Positions 10,118 through 40,112 of a stretch of DNA of 64,000 nucleotides are shown here, in pieces. The stretch spans positions 1 through 64,000 of the forward strand of contig JAGNYW010000007.1 in assembly GCA_017984755.1 (NCBI GenBank). Direction: 5' to 3'. Each line of letters opens with the position of its first letter. Position 1 is the stretch's first letter. This stretch comes from Methyloversatilis sp. Its GTDB lineage: Bacteria; Pseudomonadota; Gammaproteobacteria; Burkholderiales; Rhodocyclaceae. The position numbers and the translations under genes were made by a program. The notes under the pieces were generated by a model that searched no databases, was not told the origin of the DNA, and worked only from the letters and a program-made list of their open reading frames with translations.

Positions 10118-11656
10118 ATGAACCTCAATCCGTCTGAAATCAGCGACCTGATCAAGAGCCGGATCCAGAACCTGCAGCTGACCGCGCAGGCGCGTACCGA
10201 AGGCACCGTGGTTTCGGTGACCGACGGCATCGTGCGCGTGCATGGTCTGGATGACGTGCAGCAGGGCGAAATGCTGGAATTCGAAGGCAACACATTTGGT
10301 CTGGCCCTGAACCTGGAGCGCGACTCGGTCGGCGCGGTGGTTCTGGGTGACTACGAACACATTTCCGAAGGGCAGACCGTCAAGTGTACGGGCCGCATCC
10401 TCGAAGTTCCGGTCGGACCGGAACTGATCGGGCGTGTCGTCAATTCACTCGGCCAGCCGATCGACGGCAAGGGCGTCATCGACGCCAAGCTGACCGACAA
10501 GGTTGAAAAGGTCGCTCCGGGCGTCATCGCGCGTCAGTCGGTTTCGCAGCCGGTGCAGACTGGCCTGAAGTCGATCGACTCGATGGTGCCGGTCGGCCGC
10601 GGTCAGCGCGAACTGATCATCGGCGACCGTCAGACTGGCAAGACGGCGGTTGCGGTCGACGCCATCATCAACCAGAAGGGTCAGAACATGACCTGCATCT
10701 ACGTGGCGGTCGGCCAGAAGGCCTCGACCATCGCCAACGTGGTGCGCAAGCTGGAAGAGTACGGCGCGATGGCCTACACGATCGTGGTTGCCGCCACGGC
10801 ATCCGACTCGGCTGCGATGCAGTTCCTCGCACCGTACGCCGGCTGCACGATGGGCGAATACTTCCGCGACCGTGGTGAAGACGCGCTGATCGTCTATGAC
10901 GACTTGTCGAAGCAGGCTGTTGCCTACCGCCAGATTTCGCTGCTGCTGCGCCGTCCGCCGGGCCGCGAAGCCTACCCGGGCGACGTGTTCTATCTGCACA
11001 GCCGTCTGCTCGAACGCGCAGCTCGCGTGAATCCGGAATTCGTCGAGAAGTTCACCAATGGCGAAGTGAAGGGCAAGACCGGTTCGCTCACCGCACTGCC
11101 GATCATCGAAACACAGGCCGGCGACGTGTCCGCATTCGTGCCGACCAACGTGATTTCGATTACCGACGGTCAGATCTTCCTTGAAACCGACCTTTTCAAC
11201 GCTGGTATCCGCCCCGCCATCAACGCGGGCGTGTCGGTGTCGCGGGTCGGTGGTGCTGCTCAGACCAAGATCATCAAGAAGCTTGGCGGTGGTGTACGTC
11301 TGGCGCTCGCTCAGTACCGCGAACTGGCTGCGTTTGCGCAGTTCGCTTCCGATCTGGACGAAGCGACCCGCAAGCAGCTCGAGCGCGGCCGCCGTGTGAT
11401 GGAGCTGATGAAGCAGCCGCAGTATTCGCCGCTGTCCGTTGCGCAGATGGGTGTTTCGCTTTACGCCGCCAACAACGGTTACTTCGACGACGTCGAAGTG
11501 CCCCGCGTGCTCGCTTTTGAATCGGCCCTGCACCAGTACCTGCAGCAGAAGACCCCTGATCTGATGAACAAGATCGAGTCCACCAAGGATCTCGATGGCG
11601 AATCGGAAAAGGCGCTCGCTGCCGCAGTGGCCGAGTTCAAGAAGAGCTGGGCTTAA
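10118..11656 (+). CDS. atpA: F1Fo ATP synthase subunit alpha
   Basis: The 513-residue non-catalytic nucleotide-binding subunit of F1. The beta-barrel domain comes first, then the P-loop GDRQTGKT, and the conserved [17 protein letters not shown] segment in the nucleotide domain. The start at 10118 ([13 protein letters not shown]) matches the family N-terminus and is preceded by an AGGAG ribosome binding site at 10106-10110; an earlier in-frame start would lie inside atpH. Length is normal. Confidence 0.98.
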
Positions 11657-11677: not shown

Positions 11678-12547
11678 ATGGCCAGCGGAAAAGAGATCCG
11701 TACCAAGATCAAGAGCGTGCAAAACACGAAGAAGATCACTAAGGCAATGGAGATGGTGGCCGCGTCCAAGATGCGCAAGGCGCAGGACCGGATGCGGGCC
11801 GCCAGGCCTTACGCCGACACGATCCGCCGTCTTGCTGCCAACCTGTCGGCCGCTGCTGCCAGCGACTACAGGCATCCGTTCCTCGCGACGGTCGGTCAGA
11901 TCAGGCGCGTCGGCATCATCGTCGTCACGACCGACAAGGGTCTGTGCGGTGGCATGAACACCAACGTGTTGCGCCTCGCCCTCAATTCGATGAAGGATTG
12001 GGAAGCAAAGGGTGCGACAGAAATCCGCGTTGCCGCGATCGGCAACAAGGGTCTGGGTTTCATGCAGCGCATGGGTGCAAAGGTCGTGTCCCAGGCGATT
12101 CAGCTGGGCGACACGCCGCACCTGGAAAAATTGATCGGCACCGTGAAGGTGATGATCGATGCCTTCCAGGCCGGCGAACTCGATGCGGTGTATCTGTCAT
12201 TCACCCGTTTCGTCAATACGATGAAGCAGGAGCCCGTCATGGAGCAGTTGCTGCCCCTGACCGGCGATCGTCTCGGTACGCCGCAAGGTACCTGGGATTA
12301 CCTGTACGAGCCCGATCCGCAGGTGGTGATCGATGAGCTGCTCGTTCGTTATGTCGAAGCACTGGTGTATCAGTCCGTAGCGGAAAACATGGCGTCCGAA
12401 CAGAGCGCGCGAATGGTGGCCATGAAGGCGGCTTCCGACAACGCGGGCAATGTAATCGGCGAATTGCAGCTGGTCTATAACAAGACCCGCCAGGCGGCGA
12501 TCACGAAGGAGCTGTCCGAAATCGTCGGCGGCGCCGCTGCAGTCTGA
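11678..12547 (+). CDS. atpG: F1Fo ATP synthase subunit gamma
   Basis: A 289-residue central-stalk subunit. The N-terminal helix starts with the conserved pattern [20 protein letters not shown], and the C-terminal helix has the conserved [12 protein letters not shown] segment. Together these make the coiled-coil shaft that turns inside the alpha/beta hexamer. Length and gene order are standard. Confidence 0.97.
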
Positions 12548-12579
12548 TCGCGCACAACGATTTTTTGTATTGGGGATAG

Positions 12580-13986
<1,407 letters not shown>

Positions 13987-29466: not shown

Positions 29467-29625
29467 ATGAAAAGCCATTTCAAGGGCAACAAGTCCAGCC
29501 TGCCGACGAAGACATGCGCGGCCTGCGGTCGCGAAATGACCTGGCGGCGAGCATGGCGAAACAACTGGGATGAGGTCCGATATTGTTCCGACGCCTGTCG
29601 CCGGAAGAGGGCGCCCCATGTCTGA
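29467..29625 (+). CDS. DUF2256 small zinc-binding protein
   Basis: A 52-residue protein with four cysteines, C17, C20, C40 and C44 (CAAC ... YCSDAC), and the family pattern GNKSSLPTKTC, TWRRAW, WDEVRYCS. This matches DUF2256, a small probable zinc-ribbon family of unknown role, often found beside photolyase/cryptochrome genes. The ATG at 29467 is the only suitable start. Its last eight bases overlap the photolyase gene, indicating coupled translation. Confidence 0.85.
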   Translation: MKSHFKGNKSSLPTKTCAACGREMTWRRAWRNNWDEVRYCSDACRRKRAPHV

Positions 29626-31183
29626 GGTACGTCCCGAGGTGCGCAATCTGGTGCTGGTGCTTGGCGATCAGCTCGATCACGCGTCGGCCGCTTTCGACGG
29701 TTTCGACCCGGAGCACGACTGCGTGCTGATGATCGAGGCGGCCGGTGAGTCGCAGCATGTATGGAGCCACAAGGCGCGTACCACGCTGTTCCTGTCGGCC
29801 ATGCGTCATTTCGCCCGAAGCCTTCGCGCGCGCGGCTGGACGATCGACTACCGTACCCTCGACGACGCAGGCGCTGCCCCGGGTGCCGACGATCTTGCGG
29901 ACGTGCTCGCGGCGCGCATCACCCGCCACCGCCCGCGCAGGCTGGTGCTGGTCGAACCCGGTGAATGGCGTGTCGAGCAATCCATCCGTACGCTTTGTGC
30001 CCGCGTCGACCTCACCCTCGACATGCGTGATGACCTGCACTTCATGATGTCGCGCGCCGGTTTTGCCGGCTGGGCGCGCAAGTACAGGCAGCCGCGCATG
30101 GAGTTCTTCTATCGCCACATGCGGGAACGGCACGCGGTCATGATGGACGGTGACCAGCCGGTCGGCGGGCGCTGGAATTTCGATGCGGAAAACCGTTCCG
30201 GCTTCGGCCGGCGCGGCCCGGGCCTGGTGCCGCCGCCGACGCGCTTCGATCCGGATGACATCACGCGCGACGTCATCGCCCTGGTCGAGCGGCGCTTCGG
30301 CGACCATCCGGGTTCGACCACCCGCTTCGACTGGCCGGTCACGCGCGACGAGGCGCTGACGGCGCTGCAGGACTTCGTCGCGCACCGGCTGGAACTGTTC
30401 GGCCACCATCAGGATGCAATGTGGACCGGTCAGCCCTGGCTCTGGCATGCGCGGCTCAGTGCGGCGATGAACCTGAAGCTCATCTCGCCGCGCGAAGTGA
30501 TCGCCGCTGCGGTGGATGCCTGGCGCGCACGTGCACTGCCGCTGCAGTCGGTCGAAGGCTTCGTGCGCCAGGTGCTGGGCTGGCGGGAGTTCGTGCGCGG
30601 CATGTACTGGCTCGACATGCCCGGCATGCGCGAGGCGAACCACTACGGTCACGCCCGCGCACTGCCGCGCTGGTACTGGACCGGCGACACGCACATGCAG
30701 TGCATGCGCGCTGCCATCGGCCAGACGCTGGAATACGGGTATGCGCACCACATCCAGCGGCTCATGGTCACGGGCCAGTTCGCGCTGCTGGCCGAAGTCA
30801 TGCCGCAGCAGGTCGAAGACTGGTATCTGGCCGTGTATGTGGATGCGGTCGAATGGGTCGAATTGCCGAACGTGGCCGGCATGACGCTGTATGCCAACGG
30901 TGGTCGCTTCACCAGCAAGCCGTATGTCGCGAGCGGCGCCTACATCCAGCGCATGAGCAACTACTGCGATGGCTGCCGCTACAAGGCCGCCGAGCGTCAC
31001 GGCGCGCGTGCGTGCCCCGTCACCACGCTGTACTGGAATTTTCTCGACCGCCACGAAGCGTCGTTTGCGGGCAATCCGCGGACGGCGCTCATGGTGAAGA
31101 ATCTGACGCGCATCGATGAAGCGGAACGCATCGCCATTCGCGCACGTGCTGCCGGCATGCTCGCCGTTCTGGACGACCTGTAA
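29618..31183 (+). CDS. Iron-sulfur bacterial cryptochrome/photolyase (PhrB-like)
   Basis: A 521-residue flavoprotein of the FeS-BCP class. The N-terminal antenna domain starts VRNLVLVLGDQLDHASAAF, and the C-terminal FAD domain contains the QMLGW-like and EGFVRQVLGWREF segments. Four cysteines, C362, C450, C453 and C466 (YCDGC ... ACP), have the spacing that coordinates the [4Fe-4S] cluster in Agrobacterium PhrB, a (6-4) photolyase. It probably repairs UV lesions or senses blue light. The ATG at 29618 is chosen over an earlier in-frame start because it fits the family and overlaps the DUF2256 stop. Confidence 0.9.
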   Translation: MSEVRPEVRNLVLVLGDQLDHASAAFDGFDPEHDCVLMIEAAGESQHVWSHKARTTLFLSAMRHFARSLRARGWTIDYRTLDDAGAAPGADDLADVLAARITRHRPRRLVLVEPGEWRVEQSIRTLCARVDLTLDMRDDLHFMMSRAGFAGWARKYRQPRMEFFYRHMRERHAVMMDGDQPVGGRWNFDAENRSGFGRRGPGLVPPPTRFDPDDITRDVIALVERRFGDHPGSTTRFDWPVTRDEALTALQDFVAHRLELFGHHQDAMWTGQPWLWHARLSAAMNLKLISPREVIAAAVDAWRARALPLQSVEGFVRQVLGWREFVRGMYWLDMPGMREANHYGHARALPRWYWTGDTHMQCMRAAIGQTLEYGYAHHIQRLMVTGQFALLAEVMPQQVEDWYLAVYVDAVEWVELPNVAGMTLYANGGRFTSKPYVASGAYIQRMSNYCDGCRYKAAERHGARACPVTTLYWNFLDRHEASFAGNPRTALMVKNLTRIDEAERIAIRARAAGMLAVLDDL

Positions 31184-31201: not shown

Positions 31202-32194
31202 TCAGGACCGCTTGCGGCTGCGCCTCGGCGGCTCGGTGTCTTTCGTCGGTCGGGTCGGCGCAGGTGCTTCGGGCGCGCGCAGCAGTTGGTCCTGCACATG
31301 CTTCTGTCCGTGTTCGACCAGAAACTTCTCGAATGCCACCGCCACCGGCGTGAGGTTGCGCGCCGCCAGGTGAATCACGAACCACTCGCGCTCGATCGGA
31401 TTCCCGGTCACCGGCAGCAGCGCCAGTTCGCCGGATTCCAGTTCGTGGCGGCAGATATGCTGCGACATGAAGGCCAGCCCGAAGCCCGCCGCGCACATCT
31501 GCTTGATCGCTTCGTTGCTCGACAGTTCGGAGCCGATGCGCAGGTTCAGTTCGGCGTTGCGGAACAGCTGCTCCAGCGTGGTGCGGGTACCCGAACCACG
31601 CTCGCGCACCAGCAGGTCTTCCTTCGCCAGATCCTTGAGCGCCAGCTTGCCGCGCGACATCAGCGGATGTGCCGGCGCCGCGATGAACGCCATGGTGTGG
31701 CGGGCGAACGGCGTGGCGACCGTCTTCAGCTCTTTCGGCGGCCGCCCCATGATGACCAGATCGACTTCGTGACTTGCGAGCAGGCGCACCACCTCGTCGC
31801 GGTTGCCTACCTTGAGCTTCACTTCCACGTTCGGGCAATCGCGCGAAAATACGATGAGCATGCGCGGCACGAGGTATTCGGCGGTGGTGACCACACCGAT
31901 GCGCAGCCGGCGAGACATGACGCCGCGATGTGCCGCCATTTCGTCGCCGACCTCGCGCCACAGGTCGAGTATTCGCCCGGCGTAATCCGCCATCAGTTCG
32001 CCGGCCGAAGTCAGGCGTATGCCACGACCTTCCCTCTCGATCAGCGGTGTGCCGGCCGATTCCTCGAGCAGCTTGAGCTGGATGGACACAGCCGGCTGGG
32101 TCAGATTGATTTCGCTGGCAGCACGCGACACGCTGCCCAGCCTGGCAACGGCATGCAATGCGGACAGTTGGCGCAGCGTCGCATTCTTCAGCAT
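31202..32194 (-). CDS. cbbR: LysR-type regulator CbbR
   Basis: A 330-residue LysR-family protein. The N-terminal winged helix (TLRQLSALHAVARLGSVSRAASEINLTQPAVS, recognition helix about 30-50) is followed by a two-lobed effector-binding domain. It ends in a basic, Pro/Arg-rich tail. It is divergent from cbbL and has the sequence features of CbbR, the activator of Calvin-cycle operons that responds to metabolites such as RuBP or NADPH. The ATG at 32194 has a GGGAG ribosome binding site at proper spacing; a GTG two codons upstream would be too close to it. Confidence 0.92.
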   Translation of the reverse strand: MLKNATLRQLSALHAVARLGSVSRAASEINLTQPAVSIQLKLLEESAGTPLIEREGRGIRLTSAGELMADYAGRILDLWREVGDEMAAHRGVMSRRLRIGVVTTAEYLVPRMLIVFSRDCPNVEVKLKVGNRDEVVRLLASHEVDLVIMGRPPKELKTVATPFARHTMAFIAAPAHPLMSRGKLALKDLAKEDLLVRERGSGTRTTLEQLFRNAELNLRIGSELSSNEAIKQMCAAGFGLAFMSQHICRHELESGELALLPVTGNPIEREWFVIHLAARNLTPVAVAFEKFLVEHGQKHVQDQLLRAPEAPAPTRPTKDTEPPRRSRKRS

Positions 32195-32393
32195 GGACAC
32201 ACTCCCGGGCAGGGGAATTGCAGGTGTTCGATCTTCTGCGGCTGCGAACCGTTTCCCCGCAACGCAGGCCGGTCTGGCAACTGCACCTTCAGACCCGGGT
32301 TTCTGCCACGTGGCCTGTGTCTCCCCATAACCGTCCGCCGCAGGCCAGCGCCTGCACGATGCAGATATGGCCTGTCATGACGGCGATTTTGCA

Positions 32394-33998
<1,605 letters not shown>

Positions 33999-34109: not shown

Positions 34110-34529
34110 ATGCGCATCACCCAGGGCACCTTCTCCTTCCTGCCCGACCTGACCGACACACAGATCGGTGCCCAGATCGATCATTGCCTCGACAAGGGCT
34201 GGGCCATCGGCATCGAGTACACCGACGATCCGCACCCGCGCAATACTTTCTGGGAGATGTTCGGCAATCCCATGTTCGATGTGCGCGACGCCACCGCCAT
34301 CCTGCTCGAGGTGAACAGCTGCCGCGCCACTTTCCCGAACCATTACATCCGGGTCACCGCATTCGACTCGACGCACGGCACCGAATCGGTCGTGCTGTCG
34401 TTCATCGTCAATCGCCCGCCGGTCGAACCGGGTTTCCGCCTGATCCGTAACGAAGAAGCCGGCCGCACCGTGCGTTACAGCATCGAAAGCTATGCCGTGC
34501 AGGCGCGCCCGGAAGGCGCGCGTTACTGA
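34110..34529 (+). CDS. cbbS: RuBisCO small subunit, red-type
   Basis: The 139-residue small chain has the conserved start ([19 protein letters not shown]), the core [22 protein letters not shown], and the C-terminal extension ending near [13 protein letters not shown]. That extension forms the beta hairpin found only in red-type enzymes. It completes the L8S8 enzyme with CbbL. Preceded by a CAGGAG-like ribosome binding site. Confidence 0.97.
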
Positions 34530-34542
34530 CCGCGCGGCGCAC

Positions 34543-35439
34543 ATGGACGATACGCCACTCACCCGGCCCGCCACCCTGCGCTCGATGTTCGAGTCCTCGG
34601 GTGTGCAGGCGCTGCTCGATCAGCTCGACGCCGAACTGATCGGGCTGGCGCCGGTCAAGGGCCGCATCCGCGACATCGCGGCGCTGCTGCTCATTGATCG
34701 GCTGCGCGCCGAGCAGGGCCTGCAGTCGCAGCCTCCCTCGCTGCACATGTGCTTCACCGGCAACCCGGGCACCGGCAAGACAACAGTCGCGCTGCGCATG
34801 GCCGAAGTGCTCAGGCAGCTCGGCTACGTGCGCAAGGGCCACCTGGTGGCGGTCACGCGCGACGACCTGGTCGGCCAGTTCATCGGCCACACCGCGCCCA
34901 AGACCAGGGAAGTGATCAAGAAGGCGATGGGCGGCGTGCTGTTCATCGACGAGGCCTATTACCTCTACCGGCCGGAGAACGAACGCGACTACGGCCAGGA
35001 GGCGATCGAAATCCTGCTGCAGGTGATGGAGAACCACCGCGACGATCTGGTGGTGATCCTGGCCGGCTACAAGGACCGCATGGACACCTTCTTTTCCAGC
35101 AACCCGGGCATGAAGTCGCGCATCGCGCATCACATCGATTTCCCGGACTACGACGAAGGCGAACTGATGCGCATCGCGCAGTTGATGCTGCACGGCCTGA
35201 ACTACCGCTTCGACGATGGGGCGCAGTCGGCCTTCGGTCGTTACCTCGGGCTGCGCCGGCAGCAGCCCCATTTCGCCAATGCTCGCTCGGTGCGCAATGC
35301 ACTCGACCGCATCCGGCTGCGCCATGCCACCCGGCTGTTCGCGGCGGACACCGCACCCACCCGCGACGCGCTTTGCACGCTGCAGGCAGAAGACGTGCTG
35401 GCCAGTCGCGTATTCGCGCTGCAGGCGCAGGAAAGCTGA
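34543..35439 (+). CDS. cbbX: Red-type RuBisCO activase CbbX
   Basis: A 298-residue AAA+ ATPase. Walker A is [11 protein letters not shown], Walker [12 protein letters not shown], and the sensor/arginine-finger region follows ([14 protein letters not shown]). CbbX hexamers, activated by RuBP, pull the C-terminal tail of red-type CbbL to release inhibitory sugar phosphates. Its presence fits the red-type CbbL/CbbS. The ATG at 34543 matches the family N-terminus. Thirteen bases separate it from cbbS. Confidence 0.95.
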
Positions 35440-35440
35440 C

Positions 35441-36136
35441 ATGAACATAGAGCGTCTGAACAGTGTCCGGGCCATCGCCTTCGATCTTGACGGCACGCTG
35501 GTCGACAGTGCACCGGATATCTGCCACGCATTGAACGTCGGGCTGGCCGAAGCCGGCATCGACAGTGCAGACCTGCGTACGGTGCGCGGCTGGATCGGCG
35601 GCGGTCCCGATCTGCTGATCCGGCGCGCGCTTGCCCATTTCGGTCGCACCGATGCAGACGGAGTGCTGCAGGCGCGTCTGCGTGCGTCCTTCGACGCTGC
35701 AACGCTGCATGCGCCGCTCGCAAACGGCTCCGTCTTCAACGGCATCGCCGACATGGTCGAAGCGCTCTACGCGGCCTGTCCGCTTGCCGTGGTGACCAAC
35801 AAGCCGACGCATCTGGCGCGCGCGGTACTGGGTGCGGCAGGCGTGCTGCCCTTCATGTCATCGGTGCATGGCGGTGACCGCGCCGAACAGCTCAAGCCTT
35901 CGCCGGCCTTGCTGCTCGACGCCGCCCGCTGCCTGCATGTCGAACCCGGCGAATTGCTGATGGTCGGCGACAGTTCGGCCGATCTGATGGCCGCGCACGC
36001 TGCCGGCTGTCCGGTCGTGCTGGTCGGGTGGGGCTACGGTGCGCATGCCCTGCCCGAAGGCATCGAACCCTGGCATGTCGAGTCGCCGCTGCAGCTGGCG
36101 AGGGAGATGCTGTCACGTCAGGCCGAGCGGGCATAG
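35441..36136 (+). CDS. cbbZ: Phosphoglycolate phosphatase
   Basis: A 231-residue HAD-superfamily phosphatase with DLDGTLVDS (catalytic Asp pair), VTNKP, and the motif IV region MVGDSSADLMAA. In the cbb operon this is CbbZ, which hydrolyses 2-phosphoglycolate, the product of RuBisCO's oxygenase reaction. The ATG at 35441 follows the cbbX stop by one base. A gph gene elsewhere cannot be ruled out. Confidence 0.92.
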   Translation: MNIERLNSVRAIAFDLDGTLVDSAPDICHALNVGLAEAGIDSADLRTVRGWIGGGPDLLIRRALAHFGRTDADGVLQARLRASFDAATLHAPLANGSVFNGIADMVEALYAACPLAVVTNKPTHLARAVLGAAGVLPFMSSVHGGDRAEQLKPSPALLLDAARCLHVEPGELLMVGDSSADLMAAHAAGCPVVLVGWGYGAHALPEGIEPWHVESPLQLAREMLSRQAERA

Positions 36137-36208: not shown

Positions 36209-37297
<1,089 letters not shown>

Positions 37298-37377
37298 CCC
37301 GCCCGGCATGCACGGACGACGCAGCATCGCTGCGCCGTGCCCCGTTGGTTCAGGATTTCAGTCATTGCGAGGTTCCC

Positions 37378-38256
37378 ATGTCAGTCAGACATCCCATCGT
37401 TGCGATCACCGGCTCATCCGGTGCGGGTACCACGTCGGTCACGCGCACCTTCGAGAGCATCTTCCGGCGCGAAGGCGTGGCCGCCGCCATCATCGAGGGT
37501 GACAGCTACCATCGATACGACCGCGCGGAAATGAAGCGCGCGATGAGCGAGATCGATCCGTCGGAAAAGCCCCATTTCAGCCATTTCGGCGAAGAGGCTA
37601 ACCTGTTCGACGAACTCGAGGCGCTGTTCCGCAGTTATTCCGAAACGGGGACCGGCCGCAGCCGGAAATATCTCCACAACGATCAGGAAGCGGCCCCTTT
37701 CGGACAGCCGGCCGGCACCTTCACGCCGTGGGCGCCGCTGCCTGCCAGCGATCTGCTGTTCTACGAAGGTCTGCACGGCGGTGTGAAGACGGACAGTGTC
37801 GACGTATCGCGCTTTCCCGACCTGCTGATCGGCGTGGTGCCGGTGATCAATCTCGAATGGATACAGAAGATTCACCGTGACCGCAGCACCCGCGGCTACT
37901 CGACGGCTGCCGTGACCGACGTCATCCTCGGCCGCATGCATGACTATGTGCATTACATCTGCCCGCAGTTCACGCGCACCCACATCAACTTCCAGCGCGT
38001 GCCGATCGTCGACACCAGCGATCCCTTCATCGCACGCAACATACCGACCGCCGATGAAAGCCTGGTGGTGATCCGCTTCGCCAATCCGCGCGGCTTCGAC
38101 TTCCCGTACCTGCTCAGCATGCTGCACGACTCCTGGATGTCGCGCGCCAACACGCTGGTGGTGCCCGGCGGCAAGATGGAACTGGCGATGCAGCTCATCT
38201 TCACGCCGATGATCCTGCGGCTGGTGGAACGGCGGCGCAAGCAGCTTGCCGCCTGA
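37378..38256 (+). CDS. cbbP: Phosphoribulokinase
   Basis: A 292-residue class I (proteobacterial, octameric) phosphoribulokinase with the P-loop GSSGAGTTS, the IIEGDSYHRYDR segment, and YEGLHGGVKTD. It makes ribulose 1,5-bisphosphate from ribulose 5-phosphate and ATP. The ATG at 37378 gives the family start (MSVRHPIVAITGSSG) and has a GAGG ribosome binding site. It is the last recognisable catalytic gene of the operon. Confidence 0.96.
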   Translation: MSVRHPIVAITGSSGAGTTSVTRTFESIFRREGVAAAIIEGDSYHRYDRAEMKRAMSEIDPSEKPHFSHFGEEANLFDELEALFRSYSETGTGRSRKYLHNDQEAAPFGQPAGTFTPWAPLPASDLLFYEGLHGGVKTDSVDVSRFPDLLIGVVPVINLEWIQKIHRDRSTRGYSTAAVTDVILGRMHDYVHYICPQFTRTHINFQRVPIVDTSDPFIARNIPTADESLVVIRFANPRGFDFPYLLSMLHDSWMSRANTLVVPGGKMELAMQLIFTPMILRLVERRRKQLAA

Positions 38257-38335
38257 ACGGGCTGTTGATCATGACCTCTGAACGCTTCATCCTGCGCGTT
38301 GCCGGCGCCCGCGTGCTCCGGCAACGGGGCTGAAC

Positions 38336-39205
38336 GTGGTAACCCGCATTGCGGTCGCGGGTGGGGCGGGAATTGCCGCTCGAGTGAGGGCGGCGCTGCG
38401 CGTTCATCCGGCCCTGTGCGAGGCGAACGAACTCGAACTGGTGTGCATGCACGGAGCGGCTGAAGAGTGCGACTGCACCGGTCTTGTCTCCGGTGGTCCC
38501 CCGCCTGCGTATACGTGGCCATGGCAGAAACTGGCGATCGACATCGTTCTCGATTGTTCGGAGGACGACGCGCGCGCGCATCTCTCGGCCGGTGCGAGGA
38601 GAGTGTTGCGCTGCACGCCGGATATATCCCGGCCCGACATCACAGTCATATATGGTGTGAACCATGCGCTGCTGTGCGATTCACACCGCAGCGTACACGG
38701 GGCGAACGGCGCCGCGCACTGCATTGCGCCCGTCGCACGCGTGCTGCACTACGCACTGGGCATTTCTAGCGGCATAGTCACCATCATGCACCCGTCGGGC
38801 ATCGCCTGTGACGGCACCCCGCCTTCCTGTAACGGTGTCGCGCAGCATGTGGAGAGCGTACTGCCTGCGCTCGAGCACCGCTTCGACGAAACTGCGCCGA
38901 TCGTCCTGCCGAATGGCCCGGCGTCTCTGGTCGGTCTGGTGTTCGAAGCGCAGCGCGAAACCTCGGTCGAAGAGGTGAATGCGCTGATCCAGTGCGCATC
39001 CTTCGGTGCCTTCGGCGACCCCCTGCTGTACAGCGATGTGCCGTTCAGCAAAGTCCTGTCCGAGCGGGATACGCGATCGAGCGTGTTCGAAGCGGGGCTG
39101 ACGCGCGTATCGGGGCGCATGGTCAAGATATGTGCCGGGTATCGAAGCGACTGGGGTTTCTGCAACCGCCTCATCGATACCGTTGCGGTCATGGCGCGTC
39201 TGTAG
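38336..39205 (+). CDS. Glyceraldehyde-3-phosphate dehydrogenase-like protein lacking catalytic and NAD-binding residues
   Basis: The 289-residue protein aligns along its length with GAPDH: DITVIYGVNH, a CIAPVARVLHYALGI region, VEEVNALIQCASFG, and the end GYRSDWGFCNRLIDTVAVMA. Key residues are altered. The catalytic cysteine of SCTTNC is replaced by glycine (G125 in ANGAAHC). The second and third glycines of the GxGxxG loop are alanine (A11, A14). The Asp that binds the NAD ribose is glycine. The active-site histidine region (H152) survives. It is about 45 residues shorter than usual GAPDH. The frame is intact, with a GTG start at 38336, and it lies 79 bases after cbbP. Probably a pseudoenzyme with a binding or regulatory role, otherwise an early-stage decaying cbbG. 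Confidence 0.82.
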   Translation: MVTRIAVAGGAGIAARVRAALRVHPALCEANELELVCMHGAAEECDCTGLVSGGPPPAYTWPWQKLAIDIVLDCSEDDARAHLSAGARRVLRCTPDISRPDITVIYGVNHALLCDSHRSVHGANGAAHCIAPVARVLHYALGISSGIVTIMHPSGIACDGTPPSCNGVAQHVESVLPALEHRFDETAPIVLPNGPASLVGLVFEAQRETSVEEVNALIQCASFGAFGDPLLYSDVPFSKVLSERDTRSSVFEAGLTRVSGRMVKICAGYRSDWGFCNRLIDTVAVMARL

Positions 39206-39236
39206 TGTCTGCGATGCGGATGCCCGCAGCTTTGCT

Positions 39237-40112
39237 CTATCGATTGCCACCCGTGGCGCGACGGCACAGCAGCACGCCACCGAGTGCGAGTGCGAAGCCG
39301 GCGATCTGCAGTGTGCCCAGACGCTCGTCGAACAGCCACCACGCCTGCAGTGCGGCCAGTGGCGGTGCCAGCAGAAGCAGCACGGTCACGCGCGCGGCCG
39401 AACCCCGGCGCACCATCCACACCAGCAGGGTGGTGGCCACGCCGGACAGCAGCAGTACCGCCCAGGCGAGCGCACCCCACAGCGCGACGCCAGGCCGCCA
39501 CAGCGATTCATCGAGCAGCCAGGCGGCGATCGCGACTACCAGCGCCCCGCCTGCGTACTGTACGGCGCTGGCACTGATGAGGTTGGCTGCTGCAAGGGAG
39601 GTCTTCTGCACCAGCGTGCCCGCCGTGATGGCCGCCACCGACAGCAGCGCTACGGCGATGACCGGCAGCGGCAGGCCGTCGCCGTCCGCCAGTGCGAGCC
39701 GTGGCGACAGCACGAGCAGCACGCCGGTGATGCCGGCGAGCAATCCGCCCCAGAAGCGTCGGCCGACCCGCTCGGCGAACAGGCGCTGTGCGATCAGGGC
39801 TGTCACCATGGGCTGCAGCGTGCCGAGCAGCGCCATCACGGCCGGTGAAAGGCCGTGCGACACGGCCCAGTAACCGCCGCCTACATAGAGTCCCTGCAGC
39901 AGCGCTCCGGCCACGAGGTGCTTCGGCCATTCGCCCGGCGCCGGCCATTCGGCGCGCAGTGCCACGGCAAGCAACGCGAACAGTCCGGCCGATGCGACGA
40001 ACCGCACCACCAGGAACAGATTGGGATCGGCTACACCGTCCATGGCCCGCGCAACGACGAAGCCGGTGGACCAGATGAGCACGAACAGGCAAGAGGCGAC
40101 GACGTTCAGCAC
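39237..40112 (-). CDS. EamA/DMT-family transporter
   Basis: A 291-residue integral membrane protein with about ten hydrophobic segments in two EamA repeats (for example LVVRFVASAGLFALLAVAL in the first and the VWMVRRGSAARVTVLLLLAPPL region of the second). Members export amino acids, metabolites or drugs; the substrate cannot be told from sequence. The start is GTG at 40112, just before the first membrane helix. It converges on the GAPDH-like gene 31 bases away. Confidence 0.86.
   Translation of the reverse strand: MLNVVASCLFVLIWSTGFVVARAMDGVADPNLFLVVRFVASAGLFALLAVALRAEWPAPGEWPKHLVAGALLQGLYVGGGYWAVSHGLSPAVMALLGTLQPMVTALIAQRLFAERVGRRFWGGLLAGITGVLLVLSPRLALADGDGLPLPVIAVALLSVAAITAGTLVQKTSLAAANLISASAVQYAGGALVVAIAAWLLDESLWRPGVALWGALAWAVLLLSGVATTLLVWMVRRGSAARVTVLLLLAPPLAALQAWWLFDERLGTLQIAGFALALGGVLLCRRATGGNR

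Follow-up and report, generated by a model that had tools for sequence, protein, structure and literature searches.

A conserved family of GAPDH-like proteins without the catalytic cysteine, likely pseudoenzymes, in the RuBisCO operon of Methyloversatilis

The RuBisCO operon and its last gene

The window, by which is meant the whole 64,000-nucleotide stretch of DNA analyzed here from Methyloversatilis sp., a member of a genus of methanol-using bacteria, carries a RuBisCO operon with a divergent cbbR-like regulator gene (Table 1); the small subunit gene cbbS bears a name that we presume from its position and sequence. The operon closes with a gene for a GAPDH-like protein, which is followed by a transporter gene in convergent orientation, and the intact forward-strand reading frame described for it in the first-pass annotation is present and open. 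One terminator-like site was found (39215-39228), which does not exceed the background of shuffled sequences, and a scan of 37200-39400 returned no sigma-70-like promoter. Upstream of the operon lies a gene for a deoxyribodipyrimidine photolyase-related protein (DPRP, 5.7e-75) at 29570-31183.

Table 1. Genes of the RuBisCO operon in the window and segments of its GAPDH-like product
Feature	Position	Strand	Evidence or remark
cbbR-like LysR regulator, divergent	31202..32200	-	best NCBIfam model CbbR, 269.5 bits, below cut-off of 450
cbbL, RuBisCO large subunit	32532..33998	+	Pfam, NCBIfam
cbbS, RuBisCO small subunit	34110..34529	+	no NCBIfam match at 1e-20
cbbX, RuBisCO activase	34543..35439	+	TIGR02880, 505.8 bits, scanned from 34546; start inferred
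cbbZ-like phosphoglycolate phosphatase (HAD)	35441..36136	+	TIGR01449, 171.7 bits, cut-off 180; start inferred inside ORF 35216-36136
cbbF, class 1 fructose-bisphosphatase	36209..37297	+	NCBIfam
cbbP, phosphoribulokinase, proteobacterial type	37378..38256	+	PRK15453, 491 bits, cut-off 362
GAPDH-like gene, likely pseudoenzyme	38336..39205	+	GTG start, 289 aa, open frame; last gene of RuBisCO operon
Former NAD loop, residues 11-14, Ala11 and Ala14	38366..38377	+	alignment
Former catalytic loop, A-N-G-A-A-H-C replacing A-S-C-T-T-N-C	38702..38722	+	residues 123-129; Gly125, His128
Remodelled K-I-C-A-G-Y-R-S-D segment, residues 264-272	39125..39151	+	alignment with GAPDHs

Homology to GAPDH

The product is homologous to GAPDH far beyond chance, although the match over its whole length that had been proposed at first is broken by deletions. 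Searched against the PDB with phmmer, its 289 residues match a Bordetella GAPDH at 1e-39 in two stretches (residues 60-153 and 162-286), while a Pfam scan returns the GAPDH C-terminal domain alone (Gp_dh_C, PF02800, 2.9e-14) and an NCBIfam scan returns nine GAPDH or Epd models (best 2.4e-36), all scoring far below their curated cut-offs. With the type I GAPDH model TIGR01534 (cut-off 367.2), the product fails at 91.2 bits where the intact GAPDH of the same genome passes at 436.3 bits, and with the Epd model (cut-off 539) it reaches 126 bits. In an alignment with 34 true GAPDHs, the window product lacks equivalents for 52 of the 337 residues that make up the intact GAPDH of this genome, and the main gaps fall at 41-61 in the NAD domain and at 186-202 in the S-loop, which forms the core of the GAPDH tetramer; residues 193-202 of the own GAPDH are missing from all 13 family copies described below. 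Conservation away from the lost sites, at first called good, is modest, with only 32% identity to the own GAPDH.

An AlphaFold2 model computed from 47 rows (the 13 copies and 34 GAPDHs) reached a pLDDT of 88.6 and a pTM of 0.88, a good model biased by the true GAPDHs in its alignment, and the 50 chains listed by Foldseek were Epd and GAPDHs (TM 0.82-0.86, query-normalised). Without the GAPDH rows, the 13 family copies yielded a poor model (pLDDT 56.7), and the GAPDH fold predicted for the product therefore follows from homology and not from an independent prediction.

Distribution and gene order across the genus

Thirteen intact copies of the gene, that of the window included, occur in 11 of 13 Methyloversatilis genomes. 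Full-length relatives are present in 10 of the 12 genus mates, with two copies each in G003 and G009, and share 49-54% identity with the window copy, against 86-92% for cbbP. They can be assigned to type A (n = 7, with Arg at the former catalytic column) or type B (n = 5, with Ser), and the window copy stands apart. The RuBisCO large subunit (94-98% identical to that of the window) is found in exactly the same 11 of 13 genomes, as is the PRK of the RuBisCO operon; the two genomes without the gene, G002 and G008, have a second-type PRK alone.

Profile searches with the 13 copies were run at three taxonomic levels. The family-level search (219 genomes) gave matches in six genomes at E <= 1e-70, all within the genus, and listed G002 without a match; the class-level search (369 genomes) gave a single match, the window's own genome. 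In the order-level search (399 genomes), the own genome scored 1.9e-135 and the next genome 6.7e-68; matches were present in 246 other genomes, and SCTTNC was found in 29 of the 29 loci inspected beside that of the window. A scan of genome contigs with the window protein recovered 48 loci, four of them from Methyloversatilis, and 41 of the 44 others carried SCTTN. The patterns used found no motif in the remaining three (L075, L079 and L080, 22-27% identity). Two gammaproteobacterial GAPDH-like genes (L038 and L047) have SCTTNG for SCTTNC, the second Cys being replaced by Gly. No family member was thus found outside the genus among the genomes sampled, a search in which weaker-scoring dead GAPDHs of independent origin could be missed.

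The position of the gene differs between types. All seven type-A copies sit between cbbT (transketolase) and cbbA (class II aldolase), the families of these neighbors having been checked on L081. In G003 and G009, where one operon contains a type-B copy as well as a type-A copy, the B copy stands after cbbA. The A and B paralogues thereby flank cbbA within one operon (L082:10013-10903 and 12286-13119; L087:8432-9265 and 10643-11521). The other three type-B copies (G007, G011 and G012) and the window copy directly follow cbbP, and neither cbbT nor an aldolase gene was found near these four in the stretches searched. Being next to cbbP coincides, in the window, with an operon that lacks cbbT and cbbA.

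Fifteen operons from outside the genus, chosen from the better PRK matches and not strictly the 15 best, served for comparison. Ten carry a GAPDH with an intact motif, four have cbbT-cbbK-cbbA without cbbG, and for one only cbbP was shown. Two of these operons, with cbbS and cbbX upstream (L132 and L138), have the order cbbT-cbbG-cbbA, which matches that of the type-A operons except that cbbG is intact, and the family therefore occupies the place of cbbG. In four operons of the bacterial family (L129, L133, L136 and L139), no cbbG was found between cbbT, cbbK and cbbA, another route by which an operon can lose its GAPDH. In a phylogenetic tree, the 13 copies form one clade (100/100) on a stem so long that the tree does not place it among the GAPDHs, and placement was no better when only two type-A copies were included and eight distant or long GAPDH rows were dropped. 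Gene order is accordingly the ground on which descent from cbbG is proposed. Within the clade, the window copy may group with type B, a weak association (87/48) in which long branches meet.

An intact GAPDH is encoded elsewhere in the same genome, on contig C67, in a second cbb operon (L094, G000:C67:15000-33000) that consists of a cbbR-like gene, cbbF, cbbP, cbbT, gap, pgk, pyk and fba, with pgk and pyk named by sequence and gene order and not by a family scan. No RuBisCO gene was found in the stretch of this operon that was read (C67:15000-33000). Two or more PRK matches are seen in 10 of the 13 genus genomes, and G007 has the RuBisCO-operon type alone. One second-type PRK copy, close to a contig end (G003:C56:28-900), contains an in-frame TGA. 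GAPDH activity is likely supplied by the second operon.

Lost and new residues

Residues were judged on the alignment of the 13 copies with the 34 true GAPDHs, and aligned positions are given the catalytic, NAD and phosphate roles that they have in GAPDH. Three losses named in the first-pass annotation hold on this alignment: that of the catalytic Cys of SCTTNC (Gly125), that of two NAD-loop glycines (Ala11 and Ala14), and that of the ribose-binding Asp, now Gly. The catalytic column is Cys in 34 of 34 GAPDHs and in none of the 13 copies (Arg in seven, Ser in five, Gly in one). In the window, the NAD loop NGxGRIG has become A-G-G-A-G-I-A, with its first Gly kept and the second and third replaced by Ala11 and Ala14. 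Conservation of these changes within the family is partial: Ala replaces the third loop Gly in all 13 copies, whereas Ala11 and Gly125 occur in the window copy alone, with Gly at the former place and Arg or Ser at the latter in the remaining 12. Neither the ribose Asp nor the nicotinamide Asn (Ser271 in the window) is kept in any of the 13 copies, and the dinucleotide site is eroded in all of them. The phosphate-site Arg is Val in the window product, and types A and B differ from one another at the phosphate-site Arg and Thr. The catalytic His is retained in the window as His152 and in 11 of the 13 copies overall. With this His lost in two copies and the two types unlike at the phosphate-site Arg and Thr, the pocket does not appear to follow one fixed design.

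The family has also acquired residues of its own. Of the 86 columns that do not vary among the 13 copies, 20 have a residue seen in no more than 20% of the 34 GAPDHs (Ala14, Leu35, Asp73, Asp78, Arg80, Ala126, His128, Ile130, Arg135, Ala140, Glu185, Thr186, Pro188, Leu198, Gly200, Gln219, Phe223, Cys266, Gly268 and Arg270). Six of the 20 lie in the former active-site and nicotinamide segments (119-130 and 264-274), which together hold 11 of the 86 invariant columns (Fisher p = 0.017, for segments picked after inspection). Cys266, Gly268 and Arg270 are present in 13 of 13 copies, and at the places of the latter two all 34 GAPDHs have Trp and Asp. We read the clustering of new residues in these segments as a putative remodelled pocket.

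A remodelled pocket could also belong to a new enzyme, the fold having been turned to another reaction (e.g., that of a hydrolase or an isomerase, or thiol chemistry) with His128, Cys266, or the Cys that precedes the former catalytic position as the residues involved. The invariance of His128, Cys74 and Cys266 fits such a change, as does the Cys found one place before the catalytic position in 12 of the 13 copies. However, the window has Asn124 at that place, Cys74 is usual in true GAPDHs as well (31 of 34), no conserved new catalytic pair is evident, and every copy has an eroded dinucleotide site, which together make a new catalytic function unlikely.

Selection versus decay

Selection was estimated on 265 gap-free codons under the GY model. 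Maximum likelihood put omega at 0.120 across the 13 copies. Taken separately, type A had 0.108 and type B 0.084, and three trios that include the window copy had 0.108, 0.127 and 0.138. Fixing omega at 1 (kappa 2.4) lowered the log-likelihood by 205 for type A, 113 for type B, 343 for all copies and 114 for a window trio. The dN/dS check called for by the first-pass annotation accordingly came out on the side of purifying selection, with omega = 1 rejected. The branch of the window copy is long (1.35) and single, and its omega was measured only together with others.

Constraint on the gene is weaker than on an enzyme because it evolves fast, with an omega about 2.6 times that of cbbP (0.046 for nine sequences and 0.055 for a trio) and NG86 values of 0.63-0.82 between types A and B (among the pairs listed). 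Other NG86 estimates were also higher than those from maximum likelihood (0.12-0.43 within type A, 0.14-0.23 within type B, 0.29-0.38 between the window and type A, and 0.43-0.51 between the window and type B), with 0.02-0.19 for cbbP. Types A and B thus diverged quickly and afterwards stayed under constraint. The A and B paralogues of shared operons (L082 and L087) parted with high dN/dS.

The alternative raised at first, a recently decaying cbbG, is disfavored by omega and by the new residues shared among the copies, and it was ruled out as the main reading on these grounds. The open frame was dropped as an argument against decay. Simulated neutral evolution at this G+C, from one start sequence and with 300 runs per distance at four distances, left 42-55% of the runs without a stop. 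Another reading is a slowly dying cbbG, made redundant through the gap of the second operon and with a reading frame still in decay. Fast evolution and long branches speak for it, as do an open frame that proves little, the loss from the window copy of even the neighboring Cys, a GC3 of 0.74 in the window gene that is the lowest of nine window genes compared, and the four operons of the bacterial family in which no cbbG stands between cbbT and cbbK. Yet omega is far under 1 in every subset, none of the 13 copies has an internal stop, the window copy retains 86 of 101 columns that do not vary among the remaining copies, and the same new residues recur in all copies, so that slow decay seems quite unlikely.

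The distinction drawn at the outset between a pseudoenzyme and a recent wreck is upheld in favor of the former by purifying selection and by the absence of internal stops and of the catalytic Cys in 13 of 13 copies. A family kept across species under purifying selection without its catalytic residues is likely a family of pseudoenzymes, and it can be stated firmly that this pseudo-GAPDH family is conserved, is tied to the RuBisCO operon and does not decay at random.

PRK as a candidate partner

Cyanobacteria and plastids have a complex of CP12, GAPDH and PRK. The first-pass annotation had proposed a CP12-free analogue of this complex, in which the window protein would bind and control CbbP, or else another cbb enzyme, and had predicted co-occurrence with cbbP. 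That prediction was borne out, the RuBisCO-operon PRK being present in 11 of 11 gene-bearing genomes and in neither of the two others, and the gene directly follows cbbP in the window, G007, G011 and G012. However, co-occurrence with RuBisCO is equally perfect, and PRK is therefore not singled out. Further evidence against the proposed complex comes from the type-A copies, 7 of 7 of which lie between cbbT and cbbA and not beside cbbP, and from both operon-sharing B copies, which lie after cbbA. The window PRK fits PRK15453, which we take to be the model of the proteobacterial kind, and scores 50.5 bits against a cut-off of 236 with PRK07429, presumably that of the plant and cyanobacterial PRK that binds CP12-GAPDH. 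A search for CP12 (PF02672) gave no match in any of the 13 genus genomes, with a positive Synechococcus control, and the S-loop is cut in all 13 copies. PRK is a possible partner with nothing that singles it out, and the protein is very unlikely to be specifically its regulator.

A probable repurposed CbbG

The reading favored here, though by no means with certainty, is that the window gene is a repurposed former cbbG now maintained for a role other than that of GAPDH and tied to the operon. That the protein has been repurposed and is functional is quite probable; a regulatory role without catalysis is a guess, and a tentative one. A type I GAPDH homologue at the place of cbbG would have lost its dehydrogenase residues, with GAPDH activity provided by the intact gap of the second operon on contig C67. 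The remodelled pocket, with His128, Cys266, Gly268 and Arg270 in place of Asn, Leu or Thr, Trp and Asp, may bind a ligand without turnover, perhaps a sugar phosphate or a nucleotide, and the protein could act as a sensor or as a non-catalytic partner of one or more Calvin-Benson-Bassham (CBB) enzymes from the same operon. A more specific and rather doubtful proposal is that both lineages (A and B) of these genus-restricted pseudo-GAPDHs are ligand-sensing regulators or assembly subunits of the CBB cycle, evolved from the pathway's own enzyme, that couple RuBisCO, PRK or aldolase to metabolite state without CP12.

It should be noted that a probable member of the family has already been listed under its ancestral name. 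The RNA-seq table for the cultivated methylotroph M. universalis FAM5 gives the operon as cbbR-L-S-X-Y-E-pgp-F-P-T-G-A, with an RPKM of 17.5 on methanol and 19.6 on methylamine for the 'CbbG' METUNv1_750054 (PMC5023235). Against the expression limit of RPKM 50 used in that study, CbbG and most of the operon fall below and were counted as not expressed, and the separate Gapdh METUNv1_700107 has values of 1479 on methanol and 1537 on methylamine (PMC5023235). The low values of the operon gene count against the favored reading. The FAM5 operon CbbG is very probably a type-A copy because its gene order equals that of the type-A operons, and its listing as an ordinary CbbG (PMC5023235) is a name that hides a probable new job. 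The paper also describes M. thermotolerans as having the serine cycle only, in line with the RuBisCO-free members of the genus (PMC5023235). A literature search returned, among its best matches, no description of an inactive GAPDH encoded within a cbb operon. Because operon annotation names such a gene CbbG, pathway reconstructions assign to the RuBisCO operon a dehydrogenase that is probably absent there, and should the protein regulate or scaffold the cycle, it would be a bacterial control element of CO2 fixation derived from a dead enzyme of that cycle.

Comparison with known systems

With type I GAPDH and CbbG, the window product has in common its predicted fold, its domain order and its place in the operon (cbbT-cbbG-cbbA, as in L132 and L138); it differs in lacking the catalytic Cys, the ribose Asp and the nicotinamide Asn, in its broken NAD loop, in the cuts to the S-loop and to part of the NAD domain, and in failing the family score. 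Its best neighbor by structure and by NCBIfam model is E. coli Epd, which itself retains the Cys/His pair. The CP12-GAPDH-PRK complex is alike in that a GAPDH-like protein is encoded with PRK and RuBisCO, whereas here CP12 was not found, the PRK is of another type, and the GAPDH is without its catalytic Cys. A further parallel, by analogy, is with dead paralogues such as HisZ, which is kept as a regulator in a biosynthetic operon; both are catalytically lost homologues encoded with the pathway that they serve or, for the protein described here, possibly serve.
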